From Spongilla lacustris (Eukaryota; Porifera; Demospongiae; Spongillida; Spongillidae), in NCBI GenBank assembly GCA_949361645.1, contig OX442416.1, positions 122,887-186,886 on the forward strand: a stretch of DNA of 64,000 bases, in the 5' to 3' direction. The notes below the pieces were generated by a model, which saw only the letters and a list, made by a program, of their open reading frames with translations, was not told where the DNA came from and ran no database searches. Both the position numbers and the translations under genes were made by a program. Each line of letters opens with the position of its first letter. Within the stretch, counting starts at the first letter, position 1. Below are positions 21,901 to 64,000 of the stretch, in pieces.

Positions 21901-24900
21901 ATGAACGCAAAAGTGAAAAAGCGGCAGGGGCCCCACTGGGGGAGCGTGCAGCGCTCCCCCAGACCCCCTAGCTGTTACGGGAGGGGGCACGCCCCCTCCA
22001 GTACCCACCCCCGCTTGTGAATATAGTTATTAGACCCCCCCTTCCAGAAATCCTGGATCCGCCGCTGAGTCCCACCACAATCATCTGAAGCTGTATTCAT
22101 ATTACCGCTAGTGACGGCCAGCTGGCGGTTAACGAATGTCACGCGCGTCATAATTAATCGATTGTAAATTAATATTTAATAATTTTAACATGAAATTTAA
22201 TAATTGTATCATTCGGGTCGACCTTTCAGGCCACGGGCCGGAGCCCTGGCCTGACCTTCAGGTCTCAGGCCGGACCCTGGCCTGACTTTCGGCAACCCTG
22301 CGCTATATTAAAAGTATACGCGACTAAACTACCAGACGCTATATACATATACGCGCCAACGCTGCCAGCTCAGTGCTCTGCATGTGTGCGATACAAAGTA
22401 TAAAGTATACACGCGTGCTTGTTTAACGTTCTGTTTTGAAGTGTGGAGTGTGCATGGTGCATAGGTATATATCTATTTAATTATATAAATGTGTAATAAT
22501 TGGGACAGTGTACGCAAAAATGGCCCTTCGCTTATATTTATAAAAATGCTTCTCGTTTGAATCGCCATATCTTCCGAATGGTAAACGCTATCGACTTTCT
22601 ATTTTAAACACTTTATACGACACCACTGACTCCTGTGTGGTAAAATAGTCTTTCACTTGCTCCGTGCTAGTATTGTTGCAGCGTTCGATAACCGACCGGG
22701 TTACAACCCGCCATAACTTTAGGTATGAGTAATCAAATCGCTTCAAATTCGGTTTGTAGGTACAGAGGTCCTATACCTGTTCATTAATTTGTATATCATC
22801 CGTTACGGAGATGCAGTTGAACAAACTACGTGCACTTTTTCCTATAACAACCGCCTCCTCATATACATTGAGCGGGACGCGAATAATTGGTGCGAATCGA
22901 GCGGGAAAAAGTCAACGTACTTAGTTCAACTGCATGTTACGCGCCAAAACACGCGAAGGTCGCGCTTCGCCACCCCAACTATGTATGTTCCAACATCTTT
23001 ATTGCATGACGGCATATACATACTTACATGTATAAGAACCTTGTGCTGCAGGGAAACACCTGACCGTAATATACATCTGCATTTAGCGTTTTCCATACAT
23101 TTTGTAACTGGCATTGTGTATGAATAAAGGAAGTAGAATTTATATTTATTATTTCAATTTAAAATTCAGGGCCAGCGACTCTAGCAACACCACCCAGCTC
23201 ATTGACTGGGAGAGGTTCTTGTAGTCGTGCTTTGCACACTGTAAGAAATGTGAGGGCATCAAGAGAAGAGCAACGCAACAACTTTGCCCCATACGGCCGT
23301 TTTGCAACGTCTGTACCGAAAGGTCATAAGAGCTGGAAAGCAAGATTTGTCTGTCTTAGCCATTGTCAAGATGAACAAGTACCATGCACTTCTGCTGCTA
23401 AAAGAGCAGGCTTAGGAGAAAAAACTATTACAATACCAAATATAGACTGTAGTGGTAAAGACTTCATGGATATTATAATGGCATCATATCCTAAACTCAA
23501 AGAGTGTGGAGGATTTGAATTATTACGATGTTTACCAAACTCAAAATGTCTTGATGCTATTTCGGCCAAAATCTTACAGTGTCCTCGAATGCTTAAATCT
23601 GTCATTGGAAGCGGCAGGGTTTTCATCCGGCCCATACAACAAAATCTTAGTCTGGAAGAAGATGATGAATTGGGTACATCTTCAATGGTATGATAACACA
23701 TTGGGTATTGGTGTTTTTTGAATTTAGCACTTAGAATAAGTAAGTTTTAATTTAGATAGTAATATTATATCTAGGAATTTTTTTTTGGGTAGGGGGAGGT
23801 GGGGGATCAACAATGGGTTAATGCTTTGCTACAGAGACAGAGGAGGAGGGGGTGCTGTCAGCTTGAGGCTAGGGACAAATACTGGGGTGTGGCTCATTTA
23901 CCTCACTAACAATGTTCAATGGGATGCTTCCAAGTACTGGGCACATATAAGTGCATTTACATATGCCATTACTTTCCTTTGTGTACACTATGTGCACATA
24001 ATTATCAATGTAATTTTATGTCATTCATGACATAACTATGTTGCATTATGTTTGGTCACACATAATGGTTTTCCTGTTAAAGCATGAGTTTTTTCCCCCT
24101 TAGATTGAGGAGTGCTGTCTGAAATGCGGAATGAATATTAGGTTAAGTGATCTTAAAATTCATATTCAAAACTGTCTGTAAGTCACATATTTGATTTGAT
24201 ACATCACATTACCATTGCTTTCTCCCTAAATAAAGTGCTAGTAGTGAACCCATACCTATTTCAGATAGTGATGAGGTTAGTTGATTGTTATTTGAATAGT
24301 AATAATAACTATGTCACAGGAAGGTGATGTGGTAGCAGATGAATCAACAGCTAGTGTTTCAAAGTAAGGCTTTGTATTGCAACAGATTCATTTTCATCTT
24401 ACTTTTTTACTTTTAGAAACATATCATTAGAAGCAGTTCTACTCATGTTAAGTTCTGTAATAAACCATGACAAAGTCACTAACATTGAGGTGCGCCGAGG
24501 TTCCATTTTGATGAATGCAATAAGAGCAGTAAGAAGGCCAACATTTTGCATATCTGGTGCTTTAAAGGTAAGGTAATTAGATATTTAAATGCTTCTATGG
24601 TGAAATTGCATGTCATAGGTTGAGTTTATTGGTGAGATGCTGGTGGACCAAAGCGAGAGTTTTTCTGTATTTTGGCTAAAGATATATTGCAGACAATGTT
24701 TGAGGGGCCAGCAAATATGGTTTCATTGAAGCATGATCCTACTGGAATTGAAGTGAGATGATTTTTTTTCATAGATTGTTCATTTATGTTTACAACTATA
24801 TCTCAGAACAATACATTCTACAGTACAGGAATTCTCATGGCCATGTCTGTTGTTCAGGCTTCAACAGGTTTCCCCTATTTTTCAAATGCTATGTATCAAT

Positions 24901-26452
24901 ACATGTGCAACAATCCAGTACATCTCAATGTTGATGAAATACCGGACCAAGAAGCCAAGCAATTTGCTCAACAGGTAATCACTTGCAACTTCATTCTATC
25001 AGCTGCATGCTACTAGGAAACAAAATTGGCATACCACTATTTGATTATTCTTCTAATATTTTTTCATGGCTTAGCTAATTATAAAATTCGTTTTATCTTT
25101 GGCCTAAAACTTTGAAACCATACCCCAATTATAACAAATAAATCAAAGTAGAGGTATTTATGTACACTTGCATACATACTGGGGCACTGATGTTGTGATA
25201 ATTTGCTGTAATAGCAAGTAATACAATTGGGCTTTTCAAACCAAGAAAGAAATGATACAATTTTCTCACTCCTGTCATTGGCAGATCCAGAGTGCTACAA
25301 CAATCGAGGACATACGAACATATTCAGAAGCAACAGATTTACTACCACAAGTTGGGTACACAATACCCTTAGTCCATGTTTCCCAGAAGCGGAGCATCTG
25401 TAAATCCATCCATGAGTATTACTGTGTGAACAGGATAAAGCAGGAGTTGGACCAATTTAAGGAAGGTCTGAAATCATATGGGCTGTTGGAGGCTGTGCAA
25501 AAGCATCAGGAGCTCTTCAAGCCACTGTTTCAAGCAGATTCCAGAAGTGTTCTAACTGCTGGTAAACCTTGATGATAATAATTGCCATGGAAAGGGACTT
25601 AAATATTTTTTTTTAAATATGCTCAAATTGTTTGATAATTATTAGAGGTACCTAATTTCTCTTTTACATCGATTTGTGCTAAAAAAGGTATTGTCCAGCA
25701 AGTCGTTAATATTGTATTATCCCATATGAATAAAGTTAATTGTATAGTTGTGTTGTGGTTGAGGAGTGACTTACCAGTATACATGTACATGTGTATTGAC
25801 TGTAAAGTTTAGTCTTTTTTTTTTTTTTTCTACAGACAAGATCAAAAGCCTTTTCTTAAACATTGAATTTTCTCAAGCTGGGAGTGTTGAACGAGAAGCA
25901 GAGGAGTTAGTATATCTGATGTTCATCGATTTGTTGCATGACATTGAAGGTATGGCTAAATAGTACAGATTTTCTCATGTCATGAAATTATTTTACCTGA
26001 AGATATGTAAAAATGTGTGTGATAATCAAATATTACAATATTTCTTACAAGTTCACTGGAAATTAGTTTCTACATCCTCAAATTTCTATGAAGTATGCAT
26101 GCATACTCATTTGCACTTGTCTACTTTGTGGGGGGGGGGGGGGGGGAATGTTATAATATAGCGGCAATTTATATTGTACATTTGTTGGGATATTTTTTAC
26201 ACAGGTGGAAACGTGAATGGAGTCACACTTAAAGATGTGTTGTTCTTTTTTACCGGAACAGAAGACATACCGACTACAGGCTATGATGTGCCACCTTCAC
26301 TCGTATTCAACCACACGGACAACCCATTCCCAACTGCGTCCACTTGTGCAGTCCAACTTGTAATACCAACGGTAAACTGTGAAGATCAAGGTGCATTTTT
26401 GGAAAAAATGACCTATGCCCTCAAACATCATGGAGGATTTGGGAAGATATAA
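18938..26452 (+). CDS. G2E3-like HECT-type E3 ubiquitin ligase, 11 exons, apparent frameshift
   Basis: Proposed exons: 18938-19061, 23170-23687, 24104-24177, 24236-24275, 24320-24363, 24417-24567, 24619-24752, 24807-24974, 25285-25561, 25836-25949, 26205-26452. All introns are GT-AG and phases agree, giving about 630 residues. Domains: a Ser/Pro-rich start; a conserved region (residues ~85-210) with AGLGEK, GGFELLRC and FIRPIQ, typical of G2E3-like proteins; a UBZ4/Rad18-type zinc finger (C219, C222, H234, C238); and a C-terminal HECT-like domain (~285-630) with DAGGPKREFF, FEGPANM, FFFTGTEDIP and the catalytic-cysteine block PTASTCAVQLVIP (C596). The family transfers ubiquitin to substrates through that cysteine; substrates are unknown. 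In exon 7 the reading frame must change between FIGE and DAGGP (near 24634-24638), because the exon is one base (mod 3) short. It may be a recent pseudogene, an assembly indel, or an allele. Confidence 0.85.
19760..19930 (-). pseudogene. hAT transposase C-terminal remnant
   Basis: The minus strand reads RFPRISKLARKYLAIPASSA followed by PSERVFSRA and a short tail ending at a TAG at 19760. This matches the conserved hAT C-terminal (dimerisation) segment, whose hallmark is Y-L-A-I-P-A-x-S-A-P-S-E-R-V-F-S. About 57 codons survive. Upstream, the tryptophan that the family usually has just before this segment reads as a stop (TGA), and further upstream the sequence is interrupted by the nested element at 19987. 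It cannot encode an active transposase. Confidence 0.85.
19987..22067. mobile_element. DNA transposon nested in the hAT element
   Basis: Ends are CAGTGGCGGATCCAGG at 19987 and its reverse complement with one mismatch at 22052-22067. Both ends continue into G/C-homopolymer-rich stretches. AGTCC flanks both sides (19982-19986 and 22068-22072), a 5-bp duplication. The end sequence resembles hAT families, but 5 bp is short for hAT. Internal ORFs (20245-20472, 20720-21031, 21667-21900) show no transposase motif, so it appears non-autonomous. A short duplicated block lies at 20910-20980. Confidence 0.8.
22503..22960 (+). mobile_element. Solo or truncated terminus of the palindromic element family
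   Basis: Starts GGGACAGTGTACGCAAAAAT. It then follows the same order of blocks as the termini at 46332 and 56047: AATCGCCATATCTTCCGAA, CTCCGTGC, AATCAAATCGCTTCAAATTC, GGTTTGTAGGTA, CATCCGTTACGGAGAT, and GCGAATCGAGCGGGAAA. A short inverted copy (ATGCAGTTGAAC near 22811 against GTTCAACTGCAT near 22924) suggests two termini collapsed together. No tandem array is present. It lies in HECT intron 1. Confidence 0.7.
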
Positions 26453-27078: not shown

Positions 27079-27212
27079 TGTAGTGAGTACGAATCGAGTA
27101 ACAAATAGTTCAAACACGAGACTGCAAACACGCACACGAAAAAGGAACTAATTGCATCATGCTTCATCACGTGATACACATTTATTCTATATATTAAATT
27201 CGATGTACTACA
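27079..27212 (-). repeat. 3' LTR of the Gypsy element
   Basis: 134 bp with TGTAGT...ACTACA ends. It differs from the other LTR at one position (GAGACTGCAA against GAGACAGCAA). Confidence 0.95.
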
Positions 27213-31815: not shown

Positions 31816-31835
31816 TTCTAGCTCTCCTTAGAAGT

Positions 31836-36203: not shown

Positions 36204-36794
36204 TTTGACAAAAACAACTTCGCTAGCTAAAAGTGGTGAGCAAAACTAAAAACACGAATGAAACTCCCACCTGTTCCATGCCAATCATACACAATACACA
36301 ATTCTGCAACACTGTCATGGAAATGGTTTTGTTTTTATATAGCGATTACGTACTTATATCTTGGCGCGTGAGAACAGCTGCAAATTACGTATATTGGTTA
36401 CATGCTTTGTTTATATATCTGATACCTGAAGATGTATTGTCAGAATTTTCTACGATTTTTGGTGTAACTGGCGCTCTTTAAAACCTTTCCTATCTCGAGT
36501 TATACTCACCCATAAAGACGACGACGACGACGACGACGACTATGGACAAATTACGGTCTGGGAACGAGAACTACGAGCGTTTTTGTTCTCTTAAAGTAAA
36601 CGGTTTGGCGACTTGAACAAAACATGAAAATGATCGTCTTTCCATTGTGGATCGATAGCAATAAAGAGCTACACTATCCGTTTCTCGGTTCGTGAGTTAT
36701 ACGCGGGACGCGTTTTTTTAATGATATTCATGATACGGCACAAATCCTATATGAGAGTTACTGCCGTAACTCTCGATATATTATATATATATAT
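36204..36794. other. Intergenic, left flank of element II
   Basis: Holds a (GAC)n microsatellite at about 36518-36540, the second copy of the 29-bp repeat (36718-36746), a small hairpin GAGAGTTACTGCCGTAACTC and a (TA)n run directly before element II. No supported gene. Confidence 0.5.
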
Positions 36795-37859
36795 GGGACA
36801 GTGTCCAGCAAAATCGGGCTTGTGGGGTTATAATTTTATCACTATAAAAATTGTACGTTACACTTAACAGCACATCTTCGCAACGGTACAACCTTTTCCT
36901 TTCAAATTTCGTACACTTGTTCCCACACCATTTCTCTCTGTGGAAATCGATTTTTGTAATCTACGTATTTTCCGTGCAGCGGGTACAGCATTCGTTAACC
37001 TCGCGGGCTAGAAATCCACATTTCTCGAGGTGCGAGTGTTGAAAACGCGTCAAATTCGGAACATACATAGTGAAGTCCTGTAGCTATTGATTTGTTCAGA
37101 TCGTTGATTTGTATATTATCCGTTACGGTAATATGGCAGTGCAAAGTTAGTGCATATTTCCCGCTCGATTCGCGCCACCAATGTATCCTAACGCGCTTCC
37201 CGTTCTTCCGAGTACATGAATATGCAATTTATATCTGGCTCCGCCTATTCTCCGCCCCAAAGACCCAGTACCACTTTTGCTTGCTGGAAATTAAAGTGGA
37301 AACAATCTCGTTACGGCTGGCTTTGACTTTACAACTAGCGATTAGCGAAGTAAAGTTAACAAGTAATCGAGGCGATCGTGCAATGCACGTGGACTCTCGT
37401 GCCAACTTGGTACGTACGCACTCATAGCCACATTATAATACATCGCAGACAGCAGGAGGGTGGTGATTGATTCATTTAGGAAAAGGCTTTCCGGGGACAA
37501 GTACGATTGCTATGCCTTACTGTATACTACATGTACTATAAGTCTTGCTGCCTTCTTTGCACAACGTTAGCAACACAAACTAGTGCTATGGTGCAGTGCC
37601 AGTTATAAGAAGTGCTGTTACTGTGCTTGTAAAGTAGTGCTATGGTGTTGTGCTTGTGAAGTAGTGCCATTGTGCAGTACCCGTTATGGTGCTGAAGTAG
37701 TGCCATGCATGGGTGAAGTAGTGCTATGGTGCTGATTGTGTAGTGCTATGGTGCTGCATTTATGAAGCAGAGTGCCTCTGTGTGACGTAGTGCTATGGTG
37801 CAGTACTAGTGAAGTAGTGCCATCGTTCTGTGCTTGTGAAGTAGTGCTATGGTGCTGAT

Positions 37860-38050
37860 TGCATATTGATATGGTGCAGTGCTTGTGACATAGTGCTATG
37901 GTGCAGTGCTTGTGACGTAGTGCTATGGTGCAGTGCTTGTGACGTAGTGCTATGGTGCAGTGCTTGTGATGTAGTGCTATGGTGCAATGCTTGTGACGTG
38001 CTATGGTGCAGTGCTTGTGACGTAGTGCTATGGTGCAGTGCTTGTGCAAG
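37860..38050 (+). repeat. 27-bp tandem repeat in element II
   Basis: Unit CAGTGCTTGTGACGTAGTGC plus TATGGTG, about seven copies. Inverted counterpart at 45060-45250. Confidence 0.9.
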
Positions 38051-38454
38051 GAAGCAAGGGCCATGGGGGCCATTACCCCCATTTTATTGTCACAGGGGGG
38101 CATTGCCCCCCCCCCCCCCCTCACCTTTATTCAGTACGATCTATACACCATCCTAAAATTTATGTCAGGTCCTCAGCCTATAGACATGCACATTTATTTG
38201 TACCCCCCACCTTTAAATACCTTACTACACACCTGATGGTGGCACCGTGCTTCTGAAGTAGTGCTATGCTTGCTGTGGTGCTTATTGTGTAGTGCTATGG
38301 TGCTGCGTTTATCAAGTAGTGATATTGTGCAGTGCTAAGCAATGCTATGGTGCTGTGTTTGTGAAGCATGTGAAGTAGTGCTATGGTGTTGTGCATGTGA
38401 AGTAGTGCCATCCCTGTTATGGTGCTGAAGTAATGCCATGGGTGAATTATGTGT

Positions 38455-46321: not shown

Positions 46322-46331
46322 ATATATATAT
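46322..46331. repeat. (AT)n linker between elements II and III
   Basis: Ten bases of alternating AT separate the end of II (GTCCC) from the start of III (GGAACG). Confidence 0.85.
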
Positions 46332-46959: not shown

Positions 46960-49900
46960 TCAAGATACATTGGACGAGGATGGAGAGATTGAGAAAGGTA
47001 GTGATGGCGGTCGTACCACTGAAGATGGTGGTTGTGTTAGTGATAGGGAGTGAGCAGCCCCTAAATTACCAAAAGAGCCACCAGCCCCACCCCCACATAG
47101 CCAGGGGCTAATGGGGCTAGGCCCTTCACTGCAAGTTCCCTCAGCAGCCCTGGGGCCAAAGAGGCCATCCCCACACAGCAGAACCACAAGCCCCCTTACT
47201 GCAAGTGCGCACTATATACCTTTGGAACCATTAAGCCCCATGCTGCAATTTAAATCATTAATAATAGCCTCACATTCCAAATAGTGGAGCCAACAAGAGG
47301 AATTAACAGGCCCAATAATTCTAGCAAGGGAGCCACCAGCTAACCTGGTCAATGGAGCTAGCGTCCACAATGCCAGTGGAGACACAGCCCTCTCGCAGAT
47401 AGATCATCAGACCTCCACACTGCCAGCAGGGATGTAGCCCCCACAATAATGCCAGGGAGATGCCAGCCCTCAGGCTGCAAATGGAATCAGCATCCCCAAC
47501 CATTTCAGGGGTGCCATGAACTACATGTACCAACAACATGTGATGACCTCACTAACAGATCAACCATTAGCCCTCATTCCGCAAGTGGACTTAACAGGCC
47601 CCACACCCAGGGGCTAACTCCCCCCCCCCCCCCCCCCCCCCCTTTCGTTCAATGCAAGTTGAGTCAGCTGGGACCCCCCACACAGTAGAACAACCAGCCC
47701 CCTCACCGCAAGCTCATGAACAATAGCAGTGGAACCTGTAAAGTCTACACTGCAACTGAACTTAATAGCCTCACACTGCAGTCAGCAGCCCAGGAACCAT
47801 TCTTACAGAACACCCTCAGCTACCCAGGGCCAATGGGGTAGCCTCCACAGTGTCAGTCATGACGCCACCCCAAGTTGAGTCAGCAGCCCCCACACAAACA
47901 AGGGCCTGTAAGGCCAGCTTCGCACAGTAGAACTACCAGCCCCTCTCTGCTCACCTCAAATGGAGCCACTAAACCCTCTACCAGTATACACTGCAAGTCC
48001 AGACAGCAGCCCACACCAGTGGAGCCCTCTCACAGATGGAGCCCAGCAAGGAAGTACCAGCTGCCACACAAACAGTGGTTAATCGAGCTCCCAGAATAAT
48101 GCCAGTGGAGAAACCAGCCCTCGCACTGCAAATGGATTCAGCAACCCCAAAAATTTCAGGGGAGCCATGAACTACATGTATATGTACTTACCCCCACTAC
48201 CCGTCCTTCAATGAAAGAGGGGCCAATCAGCCAATGGGACAGTACAACCACCAACCCTCCTCATTGGTCAGGGGACATGTACCAGAACAACTTAACAGGC
48301 CCACCACACACTGGTGCCAGCCCTCGTCCCTCCCCCCCACCCCCCCTCTTCTCACTACCTGTCCTTTACTGCAAGTTGCGTCAGCAGACCAGGGGCCAAT
48401 GGGGCCAAGAACTACCACTCCCCCTCACTGCAATCACACACTACGTACCTTTGGAACCAACCAATAACCCAAGTGAAATCAATACTGCAAAACCTGACCC
48501 CCACACTACCAGCAAGGGAGCACCAGCTGCCACACAACCAGAGGATCAATGTGGCCCCCACTTAATGCCAGTGGAGAAGGCAGCCCTCACACTGCAAATG
48601 GAGTCAGTAACTCCATGCAACAATTTCAGGGGACATGTGCATGTACGCACATGTACCGATGGAATCACACATGCCCCACTAATGGAACCAGTGGAACGTT
48701 TAGCCCTCACAGCAAGTGAACTTATTATTTAGCAGTCCCCACAACACCCCCTCCCACTACCTGTCCTTCACTGAACGAGGGGGCTAATGGGACCATCCCC
48801 ACACAGTACAACTACCAGCCTTCCTCATAGCAAGCCAATGGAACCATTAACTCCCAAGCTGCAATTGAACTTAATAACCTCACACTGCAAGTCCAGTCAA
48901 AAGCGCTGCACAACCAGTGGAGCCACCAGCCCTTCCACATATGGTGTTATTAGACCATTCACTGCCAGCAGGAGGGTCAATGGGGCCCCTATAATAATGC
49001 TCATTGACCCTGGTTCAAGATACATTGGTCAAGGATGATGGCGGTCGTACCACTGACGATGGTGGTTGTGTTAGTGACAGGGAGTGAGCAGCCCCTAAAT
49101 TACCAAAAGAGCCACTAGCCCCACCCCCACATAGCCAGGGGCTAATGGGGCTAGGCCCGTCACTGCAAGTTCCCTCAGCAGCCCTGGGGCCAAAGAGGCC
49201 ATCCCCACACAGCAGAACCACAAGCCCCCTTACTGCAAGTGCACACTATATACCTTTGGAACCATTAAGCCCCATGCTGCAATTTAAATTATTAATAATA
49301 GCCTCACATTCCAAATAGTGGAGCCAACAAGTGGAATTAACAGGCCCCATAATTCCAGTAAGGGAGCCACCAGCTAACCTGGTCAATGGAGCTAGCGTCC
49401 ACAATGCCAGTGGAGACACCAGCCCTCTCGCAGACAGATCATCAGACCCCCACACTGCCAGCAGGGATGTAGCCCCCACAATAATGCCAGGGAGATGCCA
49501 GCCCTCAGGCTGCAAATGGAATCAGCATCCCCAACCATTTCAGGGGAGCCATGAACTACATGTACCAACAACACGTGATGACCTCACTACCAGATCAACC
49601 ATTAGCCCTCACTCCTCAAGTGGACTTAACAGGCCCCACACCCAGGGGCCAACCCCCCCCCTCCCCCCCCCCTTTCGTTCAATGCAAGTTGAGTCAGCTG
49701 GGACCCCCACATAGTAGAACAACCAGCCCCCTCACCGCAAGCTCATGAGCAATAGCAGTGGAACCTGTAAAGTCTACACTGCAACTGAACTTAATAGCCG
49801 CAGTCAGCAGCCCATGGAACCATTCTTACAGAACACCCTCAGCTACCCAGGGCTAATGGGGTAGCCTCCACAAAGTCAGTCAAGACGCCACCCCAAGTTG

Positions 49901-51000
49901 AGTCAGCAGCCCCCACACAAACAAGGGCCTGTAAGGCCAGCTCCGCACAGTAGAACCACCAGCCCCTCTCTGCTCACTTCAAACGGAGCCACTAAACCCT
50001 CTACCACTACACACTGCAAGTCCAGACAGCAGCCTACACCAGTGGAGCCCTCTCACAGATGGAGCCCAGCAAGGAAGTATCAGCTGCCACACAACCAGTG
50101 GTCAATCAAGCCCCCAGAATAATGCCAGTGGAGAAACCAGCCCTCACACTGCAAATGGATTCAGCAACCCCAAAAATTTCAGGGGAACCATGAACTACAT
50201 GTATATTTACTTGCCCCCACTACCTGTCCTTCAATGAAAGAGGGGCCAATCAGCCAATGGGACAGTACAACCACCAACCCTCCTCATTGGTCAGGGGACA
50301 TGTACCAAGAACAACTTAACAGGCCCACCACACACTGGTGCCAGCCCTTGCCCCTCTCACCCCCTCACCCCCCCTCTTCTCACTACCTGTCCTTTACTGC
50401 AAGTTGCGTCAGCAGACCAGGGGCCAATGGGGCCAAGAACTACCACTCCCCTTCACTGCAATCACACACTACGTACCTTTGGAACCTGCAACCAGTAACC
50501 CAAGTGAAATCAATACTGCAAAACCTGACCCCCACATGTACACTGCCAGCAAGGGAGCACCAGCTGCCACACTACCAGAGGATCAATGTGGCCCCCACTT
50601 AATGCCAGTGGAGAAGGCAGCCCTCACACTGTAAATGGAGTCAGTAACCCCATGCAACAATTTCAAGGGACATGTGCATGTACGCAATGGAATCACACAT
50701 ACCCCCCTTCAAACACTACCACTGGAACCAGTGGAACATTTAGCCTGTCCTGTAGGCAGCTCTACACAAACATTGGAGCTACCAGTCTTCTCACAAATAG
50801 AGTTATCATACCCCCACACTGCTAGCAGAAATGTGGCCCCCACAATAATGCCAGTGGAGATGCCAGCCATCACACAGCAAATGGAGTCGGCATCCCCAAC
50901 AATTTTAGGGGAGCCACTAACTACATGTATCAATAACACATGCCCTCACTACCAGATGAACCATTAACCCTCACTCCGCATGTGGACCTAGCAGGTCCCA
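46960..51000 (+). repeat. ~2-kb higher-order direct repeat in left arm of element III
   Basis: The block starting near GATACATTGG at 46962 recurs at 49018, including GGGAGTGAGCAGCCCCTAAA at 47047 and 49079 and the same order of segments for about 1.9 kb. Confidence 0.88.
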
Positions 51001-51479
51001 CGCACTGGAACCAGCCCACCCCCCACCCCCCCCCCCCCCCCACTACCTTTCTATTGCTGCATGTAAGTTGAGTCAGCAGTTGAGGGGCCACTGGGATGAG
51101 CCACCAGCCCCCTCAACTCAAGCTTGTGAACAATACCAGTGGAACCTGTAAAGTGTGCCCTACAACTGAACTTAATAGCCTCACATGTCCATGCAGTCAG
51201 CGGCCCATGCACGACTTATGGAACCATTCCAGGGCCAATGGGGTTGCCTCCACAAATCCAGTGAAGACGCCACCCCAAGTTGCATCAGCAGCCCCCACAC
51301 AAACAGGGGCCTGTAGGGGCCAGCTCCGCACAGTAGAACCACCAGCCCCTCTCTGCTCACTTCAAATGGAGCCACTAGACACACTGCAAGTCCAGCCAGC
51401 CATCTGCTGCCACATAACCAGGAGTCACCCCACAATAATGCCAGTGGAGACCCCAGCCCCCTGAACTACATGTACCAAC

Positions 51480-52050
51480 AGAGCCACACATTCCCTGCTT
51501 CCCTGCTCCTAACACAACACATGGTACCAGTGGAACCATTAGCCCTCACTGCAATTGGACTTAGCACTGGAGCTAGCCTCCCCCCCAAACTGCATATGGA
51601 CTTGGCACCCGGACACTTTTAGGGGAGCCATCATGTTTATTACCAGTCCCCATTGGAGCCACTAACAAATAGAAACACAACTACTGAAGTTGCCTTTCAT
51701 TTGCAGTGGGTTCATGTGTATACCTGTTGTCTGTATCTGTTTATCTGAGGTTTAGTGAAGCCTTGTTATTGGCGGGTGAATATCATTACCTGCCCTATCA
51801 GATTTTGGGTCATGGTAGTTGGTTTATATAGGCAAGCAAGGCATACAAGAAGGTTTGAGTTGTACATTTCTTTTCTAAAATGTACATGTACCCTCTTGCT
51901 GGAAACTAGTGCTTTATGTACATGTAGTAATAAGTACCATTTTGAATGTCATAAAAAGTAACAAGTGGAATATACAACTGCATGTAAATTGCACACGTAG
52001 ACACAGTCCATAAAGGCAACAATATTATGCATCACACCTTGCTTTCTTCC
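51480..52050. other. Centre of element III
   Basis: Less repetitive. TACCTGCCCTATC and the flanking GTGAAGCC...TATATAGGC order resemble the centre of element IV (61495-61590), linking the two elements. Repeat orientation flips on either side. Confidence 0.6.
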
Positions 52051-55000
52051 CAAGTGAAGTTAGCAGACCCCACACTTTCAGCAAAGTCACCAGCCTCCTC
52101 ACTACCAGTGTAACCCACACATTAAGGGTAACCATTTGTAGAGTATGGGCATTATTATGGTGGCCCCATTGACCCTGGTTGTGTGCAGCTGCTAGCTCCA
52201 CTGCTGGCAGTGAATGGTCTGATAACACCATATGTGAAAGGGCTGGTGGCTCCACTGGTTGTGCAGCACTTTTGACTGGACTTGAAGTGTGAGGTTATTA
52301 AGTTCACTTGCAGTGTGGGAGTTAATGGTTCCATGGGCTTGCTATGAGGAAGGCTGGTAGTTGTACTGTGTGGGGATGGTCCCATTAGCCCCCTCCTTCA
52401 GTGAAGGACAGGTATTGGGGGGGGGGGGGGGAGCGTTGTGGGGACATCTAAGTAATAAGTCCACTTGCTGTGAGGGCTAAAAGTTCCACTGGTTCCATTG
52501 GTAGTGTTTGAAGGGGGGCATGTGTGATTCCATTGGTACATGTACATGTGCGTACATGCACATGTCCCCTGAAATTGTTGCATGGGGTTACTGACTCCAT
52601 TTGCAGTGTGAGGGCTGCCTTCTCCACTGGCATTAAGTGGGGGCCACATTGATCCTCTGGTTGTGTGGCAGCTGGTGCTCCCTTGCTGGCAGTGTACATG
52701 TGGGGGTCAGGTTTTGCAGTATTGATTTCACTTGGGTTATTGGTTGCAGGTTCCAAAGGTACGTAGTGTGTGATTGCAGTGAAGGGGAGTGGTAGTTCTT
52801 GGCCCCATTGGCCCCTGGTCTGCTGACGCAACTTGCAGTAAAGGACAGGTAGTGAGAAGAGGGGGGGTGGGGGGGAGGGACGAGGGCTGGCACCAGTCAA
52901 AATGTGCCTGACACATGCATCTCCTCTTACCTCCCTCCTCCCCTTACCTCCCTCCTAAATTGCAGCATGGGGCTTAATGGTTCCAAAGGTATATAGTGTG
53001 CACTTGCAGTAAGGAGGCTTGTGGTTCTGCTGTGTGGGGATGGCCTCTTTGGCCCCAGGGCTGCTGAGGGAACTTGCAGTGAAGGGCCTAGCCCCATTAG
53101 CCCCTGGCTATGTGGGGGTGGGGCTGGTGGCTCTTTTGGTAATTTAGGGGCTGCTCACTCCCTGTCACTAACACAACCACCATCGTCAGTGTTACGACCG
53201 CCATCATCCTTGACCAATGTATCTTGAACCAGGGTCAATGAGCATTATTATAGGGGCCCCATTGACCCTCCTGCTGGCAGTGAACGGTCTGATAACACCA
53301 TATGTGGAAGGGCTGGTGGCTCCACTGGTTGTGCAGCGCTTTTGACTGGACTTGAAGTGTGAGGTTATTATGTTCAATTGCAGCTTGGGAGTTAATGGTT
53401 CCATTGGCTTGCTATGAGGAAGGCTGGTAGTTGTACTGTGTGGGGATGGTCCCATTAGCCCCCTCGTTCAGTGAAGGACAGGTAGTGGGAGGGGGTGTTG
53501 TGGGGACTGCTAAGTAATAAGTTCACTTGCTGTGAGGGCTAAACGTTCCACTGGTTCCATTGGTGGGGCATGTGTGATTCCAAATGTTGGTACATGTGCG
53601 TACATGCACATGTCCCCTGAAATTGTTGGGGCTACCGACTCAATTTACAGTCTGAGGGCTGCCTTCTCCACTGGCATTAAGTGGGGGCCACATTGATCCT
53701 CTGGTTGTGTGGCAGCTGGTGGTCCCTTGCTGGTAGTGTGGGGGTCAGGTTTTGCAGTATTGAGTTCACTTGCAGTATGGGGGTTAATGGTTGGTTCCAA
53801 AGGTAGTGTGTGATTGCAGTGATGCGGAGTGGTAGTTCTTGGCCCCATTGGCCCATGGACTGCTGACGCAACTTGCAGTGAAGGACAGGTAGTGAGCAGA
53901 GGGGGGCTGAGAGGGGGGAGGGGCGAGGGCTGGCACCAGTGTGTGGTGGGCCGGTTAAGTCCACTTGCATTGAGTGATAATGGTTCAACTGGTAGTGACA
54001 GCATGTGTTCTTGGTACATGTCCCCTGACCAATGAAGAGGGTTGGTGGTTGTACTGTCCCATTGGCTGATTGGCGGCCCTCTTTCATTGTATAGGACAGG
54101 TAGTGGGGGGGGGGGGGGGGGGAGGGGGGACTGCTACGTATTAACTATGAGGACTTAAAGTTCAACTTGTGTTTGATGGGCCTTTGGGGTTTCTTTGGTA
54201 CATGCAAGTACATTTACATGTAGTTCATGGCTCCCCTGAAATTTTTGGGGTTGCTGAATCCATTTGCAGTGCGAGGGCTGGTTTCTCCACTGGCATTATT
54301 ATGGGGGCTCAATTGACCACTGGTTGTGTGGCAGCTGGTACTTCCTTGCTGGGCTCCATCTGTGAGAGGGCTCCACTGGTGTGGCCTGCTGTCTGGACTT
54401 CCAGTGTGTACTGGTAGAGGGTCTAGTGGCTCTATTTGAAGTGAGCAGAGAGGGGCTGGTGGTTGTATTGTGTGGGGCAGGCCCTATTGGCCCTTGTTTG
54501 TGTAGGGGCTGCTGACTCATCTTGGGGTGGCATCTTCACTGACTTTGTGGAGGCTACCCCATTGGCCCTGGGTAGCTGAGGGTGTTCTGTAAGAATGGTT
54601 CCATGGGCTGCTGACTGCTGTGTGAGGCTTTATTAAGTTCAGTTCCAGTGTAGACTTTACAGGTTCCGCTGCTATTGTTCATGAGCTTGCGGTGAGGGGG
54701 CTGGTGGTTCTACTGTGTGGGGATCCCAACTGACTCAACTTGCATTGAAGGAAAGGTAGTGGGGGGGGGGGGGGGGGTTGGCCCCAGTGAGTGGGACCTG
54801 TTAAGACCCCTTGCGGAGTGAGGGCTAATGGTTGATCTGGTAGTGAGGTCATCACGTGTTGTTGGTACATGTAGTTCATGGCTCCCCTGAAATTGTTGGG
54901 GATGCTGATTCCATTTGCAGCCTTGGATCTCCATTGGCATTATTCTGGGGGCCACATCCCTCCTGGCAGTGTGGGGGTCAGATGATCTATTTGTGAGAGG

Positions 55001-55400
55001 GCTGGTGTCTCCACTGGCATTGTGGATGCTAGCTCCATTGGCCAGGTTAGCTGGTGGCTCCCTTGCTGGAATTATGGGGCCTGTTAATTCCACTTGTTGG
55101 CTCCATATTTGGAATGTGAGGCTATTTAAATTGCAGCATGGGGCTTAATGGTTCCAAAGGTATATAGTGTGCACTTGCAGTGAGGGGGCTTGTGGTTCTG
55201 GCCTCTTTGGCCCCAGGGCTGCTGAGCGAACTTGCAGTGAAGGGTCTAGCCCCATTAGCCCCTGCCTATGTGGGGGTGGGGCTGGTGGCTCTTTTGGTAA
55301 TTTAGGGGCTGCTCACTCCCTGTCACTAAAACAACATTATCGTCAGTGGTACGACCGCCATCACTACCTTTCTCAATCTCTCCATCCTCGTCCAATGTAT
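52050..55400 (-). repeat. Inverted higher-order repeats in right arm of element III
   Basis: Reverse complements of the left-arm blocks, with two copies whose boundaries lie near 53222 and 55400. Poly-G tracts near 52410, 54104 and 54760. Confidence 0.88.
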
Positions 55401-56033
55401 CTTGAATATCGATCGTCGTATTCGTACAGTTCGAACTCATCCGCCGACTGATTCAGTGAAACTCGACGAGCTCGCGTTCACTCGTGTTATACGTCACCAT
55501 ATCGTTTATCTACACCGAAAAACAACCGTAAGTCTATACTAACAAGCACTACAATTCAGCCGCCCGTTTGTTTGGTGACCTTATAGGTGTGGTTATCACG
55601 CCCTATAGGAATAGTTGAATATTCATGCGCTCCGGAGAATGGAAACTGTTCCGTGCACATATAAAGGCGCGATTCGAGCGGGAAACGTGTACTTACTTTG
55701 CACAGCTGTTTCTCCGTAACGGATGGCATAAAAATTAACGAACAGAACAAATCAATAGGTATAGGACTTCCCTACCTACAAACCGAATTTGAAGCGATTT
55801 GATTACTCCTACTGAAAGTTATGGTGGGTTTGAACCCGGTGGGGTATCGGACGTTGCAATACTGGCACGGAGTAAGTGCAAGACCCTAAATTATACTTTA
55901 GCATACAGAAATGGTGTAGTATGAAGTGCTGAAAATAGGAAGTCAAGAGCTCAAACCGTGTGGAAGATATAGCGCTTTGAATTGGATGCTATATATATAA
56001 TTTCACAAGCATCAAAATCGCATAGAACGTTCC

Positions 56034-56046
56034 ATATATATATATA
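56034..56046. repeat. (AT)n linker between elements III and IV
   Basis: Thirteen bases of alternating AT between the III end and GGGACAGTTTCC. Confidence 0.85.
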
Positions 56047-56753
56047 TGGGACAGTTTCCGAGAAAATGTCGTTTCGCATATATATTAAAAATGCTTCTCT
56101 TTTGAATCGCTATATCTTCCGAACGGTTAACGCTATCAACTTCCTATTTTCAACACTTCATACTACACCATTTCCCTATGGCAAAATATATTTTGGAGTC
56201 TTGGAATTGCTCCGTGCCAGTATTGCAACGTTCGATACCCCACCGGGTTCAAACCCGCCATAACTTTCTGTAGGGATAATCAAATCGCTTCAAATTCGGT
56301 TTGTAGGTAGAGAGGTCCTATACCTATCGATTTGTTCTGTTCGTTAATTTTTATTTCATCCGTTACGGAGATACAGCGGCGCAAAGTATGTACACGTTTC
56401 CCGCTCGAATCGCGCCGTTGTACGTGCATGAACCGCTTCCATACCAAATACATGAATATGCAACTACTTCCTGTGGGCCGAGACTTGGATAACTTATAGC
56501 CACACCCATACTGCGCAAGCTAGATCTGATGGGTAAGTATTTAATGTATTGTCCCTGTCACAGTTTTTATTCGTTATCTCCTATGTAGATAACGGATCTG
56601 GCGAAGACAACACGCTCGCTAGAGTTTCAGTCGGCGGACGAGTTCGAGCGGTACGGATACGACGATCGATATTCAAGATACATTCGACGAGGTGGGGAGA
56701 TTGAGAACGGTAGTGACGTAGATTATAGTACTGACGATGGTGGTTGTAGGGAG

Positions 56754-57272
56754 CAGTGGCGGCCTGGCTACTTTATGGCAGGGGGGGCACACATGAGAAC
56801 GGCGCCCCCCCCCCCCTTGTCTCGTACCCACAAACCAGAGGCGTTGTTAATGAATAGCTGTCCGCCTTCGGCCGATTCAACGAGCGGGGGAGGGGGGGGG
56901 GGGGGGGTGCTGTCTGCCTTCGGCCGATTCAACGAGCGGGGGGGGGGGGGGGGGGGTGCTGTCCGCCTTCGGCCGATTCAACGAGCGGGGGGGGGGGGGG
57001 GGTGCTGTCCGCCTTCGGCCGATTCAACGAGCGGGGGGGGGGGGGGGAGGTGACAGTGATTGACCGTGCACATGCACATGCGCAATACAGGCGAGTTAAT
57101 TTGTTAATTTAATCAAGATTTATAACGATTACATCGGACGATTGATCGAGCGCTAGCGCTTGATAATACATTGACCTGACGCCTGGCGCCCTTCGGTGCC
57201 CGTGGCGCCCCACGTCATAAAGCGGCAGGTGGGTTGGTGCCCCCCCTGGCCCCCCCGGCCAGGCCGCCACTG
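56754..57272. mobile_element. Short hAT-like element inserted in element IV
   Basis: Ends CAGTGGCGGCCTGGC and its exact reverse complement, flanked by a perfect 8-bp duplication GTAGGGAG (56746-56753 and 57273-57280). No transposase, 519 bp. It contains four copies of a ~55-bp unit (CCTTCGGCCGATTCAACGAG followed by a long G run) at about 56865-57045. Confidence 0.9.
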
Positions 57273-57494
57273 GTAGGGAGTAAGCAGCTCCTAAATGACT
57301 AAGAGCCAGCAGCCCTAGTCTCGTACCCAGACCCTGATTCCCACAGCTGCTGATGGCACCAGCCCCACCCCCACATATGCCTCACTACATTGCAAGTCCA
57401 GACAGCAGCCCCGCATAACCAACACCACCAACCCGCACTACCTATGGAACCACCTGCCCATATCAGACCCTACACACGAGCCACAAACTAACCA

Positions 57495-57836
57495 ATGGGG
57501 TCAGCCTATCCCTCTCGCTGCAATTGCCCCCACAATTTCAATCAATGGAAGCCACACATCCCAATGGACTTACAGCAGAACCTAGCTGACTGTGTCCGGC
57601 AGTGTGGCCAGGATGTCACTTGTGTGTCACAGCTGTACCAAGACTGGGATGCCTTCTTGGGCCAGTGGTTTGGTCCCCTGGTTGGCCTAGGACACTACCG
57701 CACATTTGAGTTTGATCAAGACCACCCTGGTGTCATGAGGAGTGAGACCTTGCCATCAGACACAAACCCCACCGAGGTAACCATGCTGAGGGCTGGAGTG
57801 GCCATAAAGGACATTAGGCTTATCAGAGCCAAGTGA
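57495..57836 (+). pseudogene. Protein-like fossil inside element IV
   Basis: 113 codons with normal protein-like composition, including LADCVRQCGQDVTCVSQLYQ, WFGPLVGLGHYRTFEFD and a following AVTVPVREGEGIYVRDP-like stretch (57860-57930) in another frame. It looks like a decayed ORF of mobile-element or captured-gene origin. I do not recognise the family. Repeat-derived ORFs elsewhere in the element do not look like this. Confidence 0.4.
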
Positions 57837-58124
57837 TGCCACCTGTTATTAGCCCCAATGGATTTCCCTGATGCGGTCACTGTACCTGTACGAGAAGGTG
57901 AGGGAATATACGTACGTGACCCCAAGAAACGGGACAAGGTGTGTCCAAAGCCTTCACAAAGCTCAGAGGCCAACTCTTCCTATCCATGCGGTAATGCTTC
58001 ATCCCATGCAGTAGCAGAACTCACTTACCTACTGTTGAGGGTCATGAGTCTGCAGATGACACTCACAGCGAATTGCAATAGCTGTGTTTCTGGCAGGAGC
58101 AAAAGCAGACCCAGGTCTGAACTA

Positions 58125-58420
58125 ATCCTTGCCTACGAGTGCACTGTACATTTATGTGGCAAGAAGTATGCCAGTAGCCAGGCCTTGTCCCTGCACAAAA
58201 AAAACACTCACAAGCAGCCTGCTGTTCCAAGTGATGAACACGGATTCCAGTGTTGACAAAGGAAGCCAGGGTCCACCCAAGCGCAGGCCGCGAGGCGTAC
58301 GCTACAATCTGAAATTGACAGACCATTTCCTGTTTGGTGTGTGGCAAGACGTACGGCACCCCAGCCGCACTGTATGCTCACAACAAGACCAACAATGGTT
58401 CATGACAAATGAACCATATT
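58125..58420 (+). pseudogene. Decayed C2H2 zinc-finger sequence inside element IV
   Basis: One finger is readable as YECTVHLCGKKYASSQALSL with HKKNTH (C-x4-C-x12-H-x4-H). About 110 bp later, in another frame, CLVCGKTYGTPAALYAH with NKTNN gives a second C-x2-C-x12-H finger whose last His is lost. A stop lies just before it. Frame changes and stops show it is broken. Confidence 0.5.
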
Positions 58421-58449
58421 GTGAGATGCATGCTTGTTTAAGGTCACCT

Positions 58450-58862
58450 CTGCAGTGTACACCATACATCTGTGTTGTTAAGGGGTTAACTTTGTATACC
58501 ATGCATCTGTGTCATCAAGGGGTTACCTGTACACCATACATCTGTGTCATCAAGGGGTTACCTGTACACCATACATGTGTGTCGTTAAGGGGTCACCTGT
58601 AAACTGTGCATCTGTGTCGTTACACTATACATCTGTGTCATCAAGGGGTTACCTGTACACCATACATCTGTGTCGTACCTCTGTATACCTTATGTATGTG
58701 TTGTTAAGGGGTTAATTACCTGTACACCATACATCTGTGTCATCAAGGGGTCACCTGTACACTGTGCATCTGTGTCGCTAAGGGGTTACCTCTGTACACC
58801 ATACATCTGTGTCATCAAGGGGTTACCTGTACACCATAGATCTGTGTCGTTAAGGGGTTTTT
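58450..58862 (+). repeat. 35-bp minisatellite in element IV
   Basis: About twelve units containing ACCATACATCTGTGTCATCA followed by AGGGGTTACCTGTAC, with variants. Confidence 0.92.
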
Positions 58863-58925
58863 ACTTTTCACGTAATAGTTATGTAATCTATCCGATGCTG
58901 TGAAAATCTGGGTCTGGGTACGAGA

Positions 58926-60680
58926 CTAGTGACGATGATGGTCCCATTTACACCCTGTACTTGTGTCTGTTGTGGGGTCAAATCCATGGTCCCATTTACA
59001 CCATGTATTTGGGTCTGTTGTGGGGTAAAATCCATAGTTCCATTTACACCCTATATTTGTGAAATCAAATCCATGGTCCCATTTATACCATGCTTTTGAG
59101 GTCAAATCCATGGTCCCGTTTACACCCTGTACTTTTGTCTGTTGTGGGGTTAAATCCATGGTCTGATTTACGTGTGATCAAATCCATGGTCCCATTTACA
59201 CCCTGTATTTGGGTCTGTTGTGGGGTCAAATCCAAAATTTCATTTACACCCTGTACTTGTGTCTGTTGTGAAATCAAATCTATGGTCCCATTTATACCAT
59301 GCACTTGTGTATGTTTTGAGGTCAAATCCATGTTCCCATTTACACCCTGTACTTTTGTCTGTTGTGGAGTCAAATCCATTGTCTGATTTACACCCTGTAC
59401 TTGTGATCAAATCCATGGTCCCATTAATACCCTGTACTTTTGTCTGTTGTTACATCCTGTACTTTTGTCTGTTGTGGGATCAAATCCATGGTCTGATTTA
59501 GACCCTGTACTTGTGATCAAATCCATGGTCCCATTTACACCATGTATTTGGGTCTGTTGTGGGGTCAAATCCATAGTTCCATTTACACCCTATATTTGTG
59601 TCTGTTGTGAAATCAAATCCATGGTCCCATTTATACCATGCTTTTGAGGTCAAATCCATGGTCCCATTTACACCCTGTACTTTTGTCTGTTGTGGGGTCA
59701 AATCCATGGCTGATTTACACCCTGTACTTGTGATCAAATCCATGGTTCCATTTACACCCTGTACTTTTGTCTGTTGTGGGGTCAAGACCATGGTCCCATT
59801 TATACCCTGTACTTTTGTCTGTTGTGGGGTCAAATCCATGGTCCCATTTACACCCTGTACTTTAGATCAAATCCATGGTTCCATTTACACCCTGTATTTG
59901 GGTCTGTTGTGGGGTCAAATCCATAATTCCATTTACACCCTGGACTTGTGATAAAATCCATGGTCCCATTTACACCATGTACATTTGTCTGTTGTGGGGT
60001 CAAATCCATGGTCCCATTTACACCCTGTACTTGAGTCTGTTGTGGGGTCAAATCCATGGTCCCATTTATACCCTGTACTTTTGTCTGTTGTGGGGTCAAA
60101 TCGATGGTCTGATTTAGACCATTTACACCCTGTACTTGTGTCTGTTGTGGGGTCAAATCCATGGTTCCATTTACTTCCTGTACTTGTGATCGAATCCATG
60201 GTCCCATTTACACCCTATACTTGTGATCAAATCCATGGTCCCATTTACACCCTGTACTTGTGTCTGTTGTGGGGTCAAATCCATGGTCCCATTTACACCC
60301 CTCAGGGTGGTTAAGGCAAGCTACACCAGCAATATATGTTGACATCATGTAAACAACATGTCGCTCGCCAGGTGCCAAGTAGCTATTTTTTAGTAGCTAC
60401 TTTTGTCTGTTGTTACACCCTGTACTTTTGTGTATTGTGGGGTCAAATCCATGGTCTGATTTACACCCTGTATATTTGATCAAATGCATGGTCCCATTTA
60501 CACCCTCTGTTGTGGGGTCAAATCTTTGATCCCATTTACACCCTGTACTTGAGTCTGTTTAGGATCAAATCCATGGTCCCATTTACACCCTGTACTTGTG
60601 TCTGTTGTGGGGTCAAATGCATGATCCCTGCATTTACACCCTGTACTTGATTCTGTTATAGGATCAAATCCATGGTCCCA
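58926..60680 (-). repeat. 48-bp (and ~37-bp) minisatellite, left arm of the element IV palindrome
   Basis: Units run ATGGTCCCATTTACACCCTG then TACTTGTGTCTGTTGTGGGG and TCAAATCC. Shorter units lack the GTCTGTTGTGG part. The 48-bp period is divisible by three, which creates artefactual ORFs on both strands. Confidence 0.94.
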
Positions 60681-60689
60681 TTTACACCC

Positions 60690-62760
60690 TGTAATGGCCC
60701 AGGGTCCAATCAGGTTGGCTCCCTCACTGCAGGCGGTCAGAATGTCCAGTGCATGGAGCAGTTGTGGATGGAGTTATCAGACTACCAGCGAGTGAGCAAC
60801 CAGGTGCTAAGAAATCCTACAGGGTCATTGGGGGCACCCACAATAATGCAGCTCTCACACTGCGATAGGAATCGGCACCCCCCACAATATTTGGGGAGCC
60901 ATCAACTGGATTCACACATGCCCCATTCGCCCCATGGCCCTATCTCCCACTACCTACATGTATCCTCCTTTACTGCAAGTTGTATCCGAGGCCCAGGCCA
61001 TCCCCTACTCAATAGCACTCTCAGTCCAAACGCAACCAGCCCTCCCACCCACCCCTAAACACCCCTCTTACATATGGTGTAATCAGGCTGCCAACTGGGG
61101 AGCTGCCAGCTGCCACTTTACCAGGGATGAATGGGGTTGTCACAAAACTAGACCCCATCATGTGGAGTAGAACCTTGAACTGGAGCTGGCCCCAACACTG
61201 GGGCCAGCCACAATGGCCCCCTATCCTAGCCCCACACAGCTCCACACTGCAAATGCAAATGAAGCCACTACCTATGAAACCATTAACCCCCACACTACAA
61301 GAGGACTTACTGGTAGGGAACCATAGTGGAGTTACCAGCTCACATTGGACAAATGGGGATACCACCACTGGAGCAGCCTCCATTTGTAGAGTGTACATGC
61401 CTATATTTTTCTCTTCACACATGTAGATCTGAACTACTGTAAGAGACTTAGACATGTACATGTTTGTGCATGTACGGAGTAAATTTTATCTGGTGTGAAG
61501 CCATGCTGTTAGTGGTGAATATAGTTACCTGCCCTATCGGTACTGATTGCGGTGGGTCTGCACCCGTGGTAGGTGTATATAGACAACCAAGGCTTGCAGA
61601 GGGCGTTTTGCCTACTGGGAACTACTACTGTACGCGAATAGCAACACATGGAATGATAATACACTACCGGTACCCGGTATAGCACATTTTTGCAGAAACA
61701 CCAGCCTAGGGCTAGGTAGTTGATGAATCCATTAAAGTTGTAGGGTCTATTAACTCCACTTGTGTGGTCATGAATTCTGATGTCTTCACCGTGCCACATT
61801 GCACCTGTGACCGTGCATGCAATTTATGTGACATTCAAAATGGCACTTTCATGTTTCGCTACTCGCGTACAGTAGTTCCCAGTAGGCAAAACGCCCTCTG
61901 CAATCCTTGGTTGTCTATATACACCTACCACGGGTGCAGACCCACCGCAATCAGTACCGATAGGGCAGGTAACTATATTCACCACTAACAGCTTGGCTTC
62001 ATACCAGATAAAATTTATTCTGTACAACACAAACTGTGAAGAGAAAAATATACTCTACAAATGGAGGCTGCTCCAGTGGTGTTATCCCCATTTGTCCAAT
62101 GCGAGCTGGTAACTCCACGATGGTTCCCTACCAGTAAGTCCTCTTGTAGTGTGGGGGTTAATGGTTTCATAGGTAGTGGCTTCATTTGCATTTGCAGTGA
62201 GGAGCTGTGTGGGGCTAGGATAGGGTGCCATTGTGGCTGGCCCCAGTGTTTGGGGCTGGCTCCAGTTCAAGGTTCCACTCCACATGCTGAGATCTAGTTT
62301 TGTGACAACCCCATTCATCCCTGGTAATGTGGCAGCTGGCAGTTCTCCGGCCTGTTGGTAGTATGATTACACCATATGTAAGAGGGGTGTTTAGGGGTGG
62401 GTGGGAGGGCTGGTTGTGTGGGGACTGAGAGTGCTATTGAGTAGGGGATGGCCTGTGCCTCGGATATAACTTGCAGTAAAGGAGGATAGGTAGTGGGAGA
62501 TAGGGCCATGGGGCGAATGGGGCATGTGTGAATCCAGTTGATGGCTCCCCAAATATTGTGGAGGGTGCCGATTCCTATCGCAGTGTGAGAGCTGCATTAT
62601 TGTGGGTGCCCCCAATGACCCTGTAGGATTTTTTAGCACCTGATTGCTCTTTTGCTGGCAGTTTGATAACTCCATCCGCAACTGCTCCATGCACTGGACA
62701 TTCTGACCGCCTGCAGTGAGGGAGCCAACCCGATTGAACCCTGGGTCATTACAGGGTGCA
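60690..62760. other. Centre of the element IV palindrome
   Basis: 60700-61640 is mirrored by about 61850-62760: CGGTACTGATTGCGGTGGGT at 61539 and its complement near 61943, and GGTCAGAATGTCCAGTGCAT at 60736 and its complement near 62691. The loop is about 61660-61845. It resembles the centre of element III. No gene. Confidence 0.75.
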
Positions 62761-63945
62761 AATGGGACCATGGATTTGATCCTAAAACAGAATCAAGTAC
62801 AGGGTGTAAATGCGTGGATCATGCATTTGACCCCACAACAGACAAAAGTACAGGGTGTAAATGGGACCATAGATTTGACCCCACCACATACACAAGTACA
62901 GGGTGTAAATGGGACCATGGATTTGATCCCAATATCATAGACACAAGTACAGGGTGCAAATGGGACCATGGATTTGATCACAAGTACAGGGTGTAAATGG
63001 AACCATGGTTATGATTACACAACAGACACCAGTACAGGTTGTAAATGGGACCATGGATTTGACCTCAAAACATAACAAGTACAGGGTGTAAATGAGACCA
63101 TGGATTTGACCCCACAACAGACACAAGTACAGGGTGTAAATGGGACCATGGATTTGACCTCAAAACATACACATGTACAGGGTGTAAATGAGACCATGGA
63201 TTAGACCCCACAACAGACAAAAGTATAGGGTGCAAATGGGACCATGGATTTGACCCCACAACAGACAAAAGTACAGGGTATAAATGGGACCATGGATTTG
63301 ACCCCACAACAGACTCAATTACAGGGTATAAATGGGACCATGGATTTGACCCCACAACAGACACAAGTACAGGGTGTAAATGGGACCATGGATTTGACCT
63401 CAAAAGCATGGTATAAATGGGACCATGGATTTGATTTCATAACAGACACAAATATAGGGTGTAAATGGAACTATGGATTTGACCCCACAACAGACCCAAA
63501 TACATGGTGTAAATGGGACCATGGATTTGATCACAAGTACAGGGTCTAAATCAGACCATGGAATTGACCCCACAACAGACAAAAGTACAGAGTACAGGGT
63601 GTTAATGGGACCATGGATTTGATCACAAGTACAGGGTGTAAATCAGACAATGGATTTGACTCCACAACAGACAAAATTACAATGTGTAAATCAGACCATG
63701 GATTTGACCCCACAACAGACAAAAGTACAGGGTGTAAATGGGACCATGGATTTGACCTCAAAAGCATGGTATAAATGGGACCATGGATTTGATTTCACAA
63801 CAGACACAAATACAGGGTGTAAATGGAACTATGGATTTTACCCCACAACAGACCCAAGTACAGGGTGTAAATGGGACCATGGATTTGACCCCACAACAGA
63901 CACAAGTACAGGGTGTAAATGGGACCACCATCGTCACTAGTCTCA
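62760..63945 (+). repeat. 48-bp minisatellite, right arm of the element IV palindrome
   Basis: Reverse complement of the left array: CAAGTACAGGGTGTAAATGG then GACCATGGATTTGACC. It is followed by 63946-64000, which mirrors 58865-58925. Confidence 0.94.
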
Positions 63946-64000
63946 TACCCAGACCCAGATTTTCACAGCATCGGATAGATTACATAACCATTACGTGAAA

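Follow-up and report, generated by a model that had tools for sequence, protein, structure and literature searches.

Three contiguous palindromic elements of the sponge Spongilla lacustris, here called II, III and IV, and a shorter fragment at 22502 are very probably non-autonomous offspring of one cut-and-paste DNA transposon family, moved by the transposase of a parental element that carries the domain DUF7869. All four lie in a stretch of 64,000 nucleotides (assembly GCA_949361645.1, contig OX442416.1, positions 122,887-186,886, forward strand; hereafter the window). The parents measure some 13 kb or more and share with their offspring the ends, TA-rich targets and 4-bp duplications of the form AWWT; they encode one intronless DUF7869 protein of ~900 amino acids, which on the basis of a structural model is presumed to be a DDE transposase. 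The offspring would have lost the gene by internal deletion, their terminal repeats meanwhile extending towards the middle until the entire element was palindromic, the foldback form. The parental transposase would mobilise all members in trans, and copies landing in (TA)n, among them in the TA tracts that border older copies, would build chains such as the one in the window. The common ends, the coding parents, the DDE-like fold, the duplications, the chains, the remnants of the gene and, for some of the copies, the homogenised arms are shown here; we infer that the DUF7869 protein cuts these ends, and that the arms of a palindrome are made alike through arm-to-arm conversion or template switching.

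An earlier note on this DNA, made from its letters alone, had described ~10-kb inverted pairs, and the window bears this out, with boundaries that can be read and only TA tracts between the elements (46322..46331 between II and III, 56034..56047 between III and IV; the tract at 36782..36794 is the left flank and target site of II). Element II (36795..46321, plus strand) is complete, with ends GGGACAGT...ACTGTCCC, dispersed copies, ATAT on both flanks and arms 97.5% identical over 1,855 columns; its left arm contains a 27-bp tandem array (37781..38046, plus strand), mirrored at 45070-45335, with 22-bp arrays further inward. The terminal blocks proposed for II are present in a variant form, CCCGCTCGATTCGCGCC, but the exact 17-mer is not in it. 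Element III (46332..56033, plus strand) is also complete, with variant ends GGAACGTTC...GAACGTTCC and arms 93.5% identical over 1,889 columns. For IV (56048..64000, plus strand) the left end, GGGACAGTTTCC, and the centre lie inside the window, and the element mirrors about an axis near 61.7 kb; its right end lies beyond the window. The elements had been called non-coding, which does not fully hold for the origin of III and IV, since both keep remnants of the transposase gene carried by the autonomous element HH (L059+60) described below. The left arm of III holds a 5' remnant (46846..46943, plus coding sense, 70% to the HH gene, reading SADEFELYE) with a mirror copy at 55422-55519. In IV there are a 5' remnant (56560..56655, plus coding sense, 76%, reading SADEFERYGY) and a 3' remnant of the C2H2 finger region with open reading frames (57580..58402, plus coding sense, 77%), followed by two tandem arrays also present in the autonomous element, of 35/71 bp (58456..58858, 80% to HH) and 48 bp (58938..60693, up to 93%, mirror copy 62750-63927), and by a central inverted repeat (60932..62511) homologous to the internal inverted repeat of HH (79-81% to its IRa). 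The fragment at 22502..22935 (plus strand), previously taken for a solo copy, does have a family left end, GGGACAGTGTAC, but is a truncated hairpin miniature inverted-repeat transposable element (MITE) of the same family that retains the left terminal repeat and centre and has lost its right half; it aligns with an 824-bp hairpin MITE of L028 at 68% over 450 columns, centre covered. Element IV also holds a 519-bp insertion (56754-57272) with ends CAGTGGCGGCC...GGCCGCCACTG, GTAGGGAG on both sides and a G-rich tandem repeat of 46-49 bp, which we take to be a hAT-type MITE with an 8-bp duplication.

The suggestion that the ends are shared and dispersed is borne out across the assembly (248.6 Mb, 51 contigs, window included). 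The family 17-mer occurs without mismatch 508 times in forward and 484 times in reverse orientation, far above chance, since its reversed pattern has 0 matches; with A or T allowed at one place and up to 2 mismatches the numbers rise to 2956 and 2923, against 4 and 4 for the control. Among the matches listed, the sites mostly alternate in sign, and 13 successive gaps between a right end and a left end measure 686-774 bp, the spacing of two abutting elements, while four others measure 1550-1573 bp; one of these four, when read, contains the 824-bp hairpin MITE within the TA tract of another copy's end. Of 1749 candidate places for the 377-bp end of II, 40 were scored and all 40 match it at 98-100%; 28 of these form 14 plus/minus pairs 8-13 kb apart. 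Inverted chimeras are a known artefact of long-read sequencing, and the palindromes could in principle be products of sequencing or assembly. Such an origin is scarcely credible here: the arms differ by 0.1-17%, the interiors and ends recur at many loci, target duplications stand at the flanks and classes of arms are common to several loci.

The earlier note saw no transposase, supposed that mobility was supplied from elsewhere and proposed looking for a coding copy. Such copies with the same ends as the palindromes exist in the genome, and two are L026+27, whose gene lies in three open pieces, and HH, which encodes a single open frame of 907 codons. HH consists, in order, of a terminal repeat, a 48-bp array, an inverted repeat (~850 bp per arm, with a 159-bp loop between), a 71-bp array, the gene and the second terminal repeat; its terminal repeats are 90% alike over 495 columns. 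L014 is a palindrome of the left half of HH with the same loop, and every arm of IV and L020+21 that was read contains remnants of the gene, both arrays (71 and 48 bp) and the HH-type central repeat. The HH core is matched in 40 of 40 scored places, and in 32 of them the second arm begins exactly as in HH. An ancestor with twin genes, suggested by a plus/minus gene pair 18.8 kb apart on C13, was dropped, as two adjacent elements account better for where the core repeat lies. DUF7869 has at least 185 matches in the genome (150 of 239 candidates scored), and by eye 88 open frames of at least 880 codons without stops (880-928 codons) were counted among the matches listed. The ten best-scoring matches (L029-L038) are other DUF7869 genes, and two further gene families, L115 (880) and L116 (894), lie behind GGGACAG ends. 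The nearest named proteins to the parental open reading frame are from Ephydatia muelleri.

The reading of this protein as a transposase draws on a predicted DDE-like model with an RNase H-like core, whose putative acidic triad, D463, D542 and D584, is invariant among 12 relatives. The scores for this fold are moderate, which slightly lowers our confidence in the main explanation. NCBIfam gave sub-threshold matches only, a profile search of PDB sequences gave no match, and neither did Foldseek at E <= 0.001. In open-licence PMC papers, the literature covered, DUF7869 was not found and GQNKN occurs in unrelated papers only; either may be described elsewhere.

The target-site duplication was read with ends GGGACAG...CTGTCCC or GGAACNTTC, in a set that has no entry for L017, IV, the fragment at 22502 or element I (see below). 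Of the 10 II-type pairs 8 have equal 4-bp flanks, as do 15 of the 17 other pairs (23/27); the duplications are AAAT, ATTT and ATAT, mostly ATAT in TA tracts, and 43 of 54 flanks end in ATAT. Because AAAT in L014 and L019 and ATTT in L075/L076 fix it, the length is 4 bp, or 2 bp should the outer T and A be part of the element itself. L014 sits within the end of another copy, and the intact form of that end represents the empty site. The family probably belongs to Sola2, whose AT-rich AWWT duplication of 4 bp is the one defining feature it shares (in 23 of 27 pairs, with the same 2-bp proviso), an assignment made by published description rather than sequence kinship. Sola transposases have a DDD core. 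The published account of Sola2-type elements, in the sections drawn on here, gives an 888-amino-acid transposase, AWWT duplications (ATAT, AAAT, ATTT), terminal repeats of 12-21 bp and related elements that nearly agree on one side but differ on the other (PMC3627910). By description the likeness lies in the duplication, the length of the putative transposase and such one-sided agreement; in contrast, the terminal repeats of HH are about 490 bp, and palindromic forms are not mentioned in those sections.

In architecture the sponge family works like a foldback element, as the earlier note had anticipated. The comparison covered 17 elements, namely II and III together with 15 from contig 1, and 16 of the 17 are inverted over 62-100% of their length, so that long terminal inverted repeats fill most of the element; the exception is the coding L026+27, at 21%. 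Galileo of Drosophila, a member of the P superfamily, is described as foldback-like, with one copy of 9,021 bp whose two terminal repeats, 4,246 and 4,680 bp long, contain tandem repeats of ~140 bp. Parts of its transposase gene have been taken up into the terminal repeats and inserted elements have passed from arm to arm; the transposase is P-type, the duplications measure 7-8 bp, and none of 191 copies has a functional transposase (PMC4168063). Tetris of Drosophila virilis, likewise from portions of its description, has the foldback form, tandem repeats in its terminal repeats, a related MITE with the same ends and 8-10-bp duplications, and its authors found no autonomous copy (PMC4079207). 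The sponge family resembles Galileo in foldback form, tandem repeats in the arms of some copies, gene pieces in terminal repeats and putative arm-to-arm transfer, and Tetris in foldback form, such tandem repeats and a related MITE with the same ends. It is conceivable that the sponge elements are themselves Mutator-type or P-type foldback elements in which DUF7869 is a mere passenger gene, and the closeness to Galileo speaks for this. We regard it as very unlikely, however, since the duplication is 4 bp rather than the 7-8 bp of Galileo and the P superfamily or the long duplication of Mutator elements (8-10 bp in Tetris), and since DUF7869 has a DDE-like core in its model and is the only long gene between the perfect 43-bp terminal repeats of a Desulfocicer element (below). 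As far as those descriptions extend, the sponge family further differs from Galileo by another transposase and the 88 listed open frames of at least 880 codons, and from Tetris by a known autonomous copy. MuTAnT, in the part of its account cited, shares TA microsatellite targets and autonomous and non-autonomous copies, but has a Mutator-like transposase (PMC4486113).

Beneath the shared ends the interiors fall into groups: L009, L012, L013 and L015; L011, L014, L016-L019 and L026+27, with L020+21 more partially; and III, L022+23 and L024+25. The interior of L010 is partly common to L022+23, and that of II has no partner among the 17 elements compared. The expectation of many copies with the same ends and differing interiors therefore holds, by the end counts and these groups. 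Tandem arrays, proposed as a feature of each interior, are found in II, IV and the relatives of HH but are not a fixed feature: the scan of three palindromes beyond the window showed them to be plentiful in L019 and all but lacking in L009 and L015. It had also been proposed that the ends close on whatever neighbouring DNA lies between them and mirror-amplify it. Several interior groups under the same ends would suit this, and so would L022+23, where a III-type left half is combined with an L010-type part on the right, yet we consider it improbable. Three interiors were searched with 40 places scored for each, and all three proved to be large repeat families: the 900-bp interior of III has 41 long matches at 94-100% (among 999 candidate places), the centre of II is matched at 92-100% over its full length in 15 cases and in part in about 25, and the interior of L009 has 176 matches. 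The arrays and gene scraps of IV-type interiors are those of the autonomous element. Shared ends with differing interiors are thus correctly described, but these interiors are repeat subfamilies and not chance captures. The element L022+L023 (contig 1, 20402240-20412420) is chimeric, with a III-type left end and half and a GGGACAG-type right end with the L010-like part, suggesting that halves have been exchanged between subfamilies.

Whether each palindrome is only inherited or is mirrored anew was judged from how alike its own halves are. In 11 II-type elements the two ends of one element differ on average at 4.4 columns, ends of different elements at 7.7, and 0 of 10,000 shuffles were as low, although the copies are related and this is not a clean probability. 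Private changes are common to both ends in five (C10 with 3, C16 with 3, C3b with 2, C3a and C1 with 1 each), confined to one end in four (C22, C9, C2c, C13), and absent in two (C2b and the window's II). Over 1.5 kb of the arms in 13 elements (L017 without a second arm read, L020+21, whose arms are 99.8% alike, without a comparator), own arms are clearly closest in L009 (99.9%, nearest other arm 93%), L019 (99.1%, 87%), L015 (97.8%, 86%) and L014 (93.6%, 87%), and also in L013, at 98.1% against 95.6-96.7% for others over the full length, yet with 99.6% over 505 bp. The own arm is not the closest in III, L024+25, L011 and L016, and L012 and L018 give a mixed picture. Two shared classes are formed by the central repeats of HH, L014 and L017, the right arm of HH being 97.5% identical to the left arm of L014 against 93.9% to its own left arm; the right arm of L026+27 fits these classes, while its left arm fits neither well. 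Because these arm classes are shared, the palindromic core is older than the split between parent and offspring. Each palindrome might then have formed once per subfamily and been passively inherited without further mirroring. The shared classes of HH, L014 and L017, the inherited arms of III and L024+25, the closer matches elsewhere of L011 and L016 and the end-specific changes of C22, C9, C2c and C13 all fit this and weigh against continuing homogenisation. We nevertheless find purely passive inheritance rather doubtful, given the private changes at both ends of C10, C16, C3b, C3a and C1 and the own-arm likeness of L009, L019, L015 and L014. We conclude that the palindromes are inherited through transposition and re-homogenised from arm to arm in part of the copies; the mirror-amplification of the earlier note stands to that extent.

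A scan of bacterial and archaeal genomes revealed 14 DUF7869 loci, one of them in the cultured Desulfocicer vacuolatum, where perfect 43-bp terminal repeats enclose DUF7869 and no other long gene. Of 8 loci inspected by script, 7 have terminal repeats; L089 gave only 12- and 18-bp matches. Most of these repeats begin with TGGGG. The motif [CG]AAAA stands at offset 14 in 9 of 12 bacterial ends placed by rule (14 in all), and three ends, one misplaced and two not placed by the rule, fit by eye; in the sponge, 27 of 28 GGGACAG-type ends have it at the same offset, these ends being copies related to each other and III-type ends lying outside this count. Equal flanks are seen in L087 (AAAT/AAAT) and L084 (AATT/AATT), unequal ones in L081, L082, L083, L085 and L086. 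Against three bacterial genomes, the Desulfocicer element DNA found one full copy in one and a partial match in each of the other two. DUF7869 relatives (L090, L094) also lie on contigs assigned to Cycloclasticus living as a symbiont in a marine sponge, and could possibly represent a route for transfer between symbiont and sponge. With the same subterminal motif spacing and AWWT-like targets in mind, we tentatively speculate, at somewhat less than even confidence, that DUF7869 may mark a transposase lineage common to bacterial insertion sequences and an animal, and that in the sponge it may have driven a radiation of foldback forms, with conversion between arms time and again turning copies into mirrors of one of their own halves, so that palindromes evolve in concert copy by copy. 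The findings suggest a transposase function for DUF7869, a domain of unknown function, and tie bacterial elements to animal ones. Foldback elements often have no known autonomous parent, as in the cited part of the Tetris study, where none was found (PMC4079207). Here a single genome contains parents whose genes are open as well as elements mirrored in part, full palindromes and MITEs, which makes the origin of foldback palindromes directly testable.

Some other features of the window deserve mention. Element I (1-14310 and beyond), with a ~141-bp unit, is another dispersed palindromic repeat; its arm at 13700-14310 is matched in 40 of 40 scored places (378 candidates), with many minus/plus pairs 11-18 kb apart. 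No ends in common with the II-IV family were found for it, and a guessed family end at 16995 proved wrong. Exon-like frames at 23163-26450, beside the truncated MITE, have a sub-threshold HECT match only and are presumably a HECT/G2E3-like gene; it was dropped as a transposon gene because the adjoining solo copy is a truncated MITE. Finally, the minus strand at 27263-31827 carries the coding region of a Gypsy-type long terminal repeat retrotransposon, with a pol frame of 1274 amino acids.
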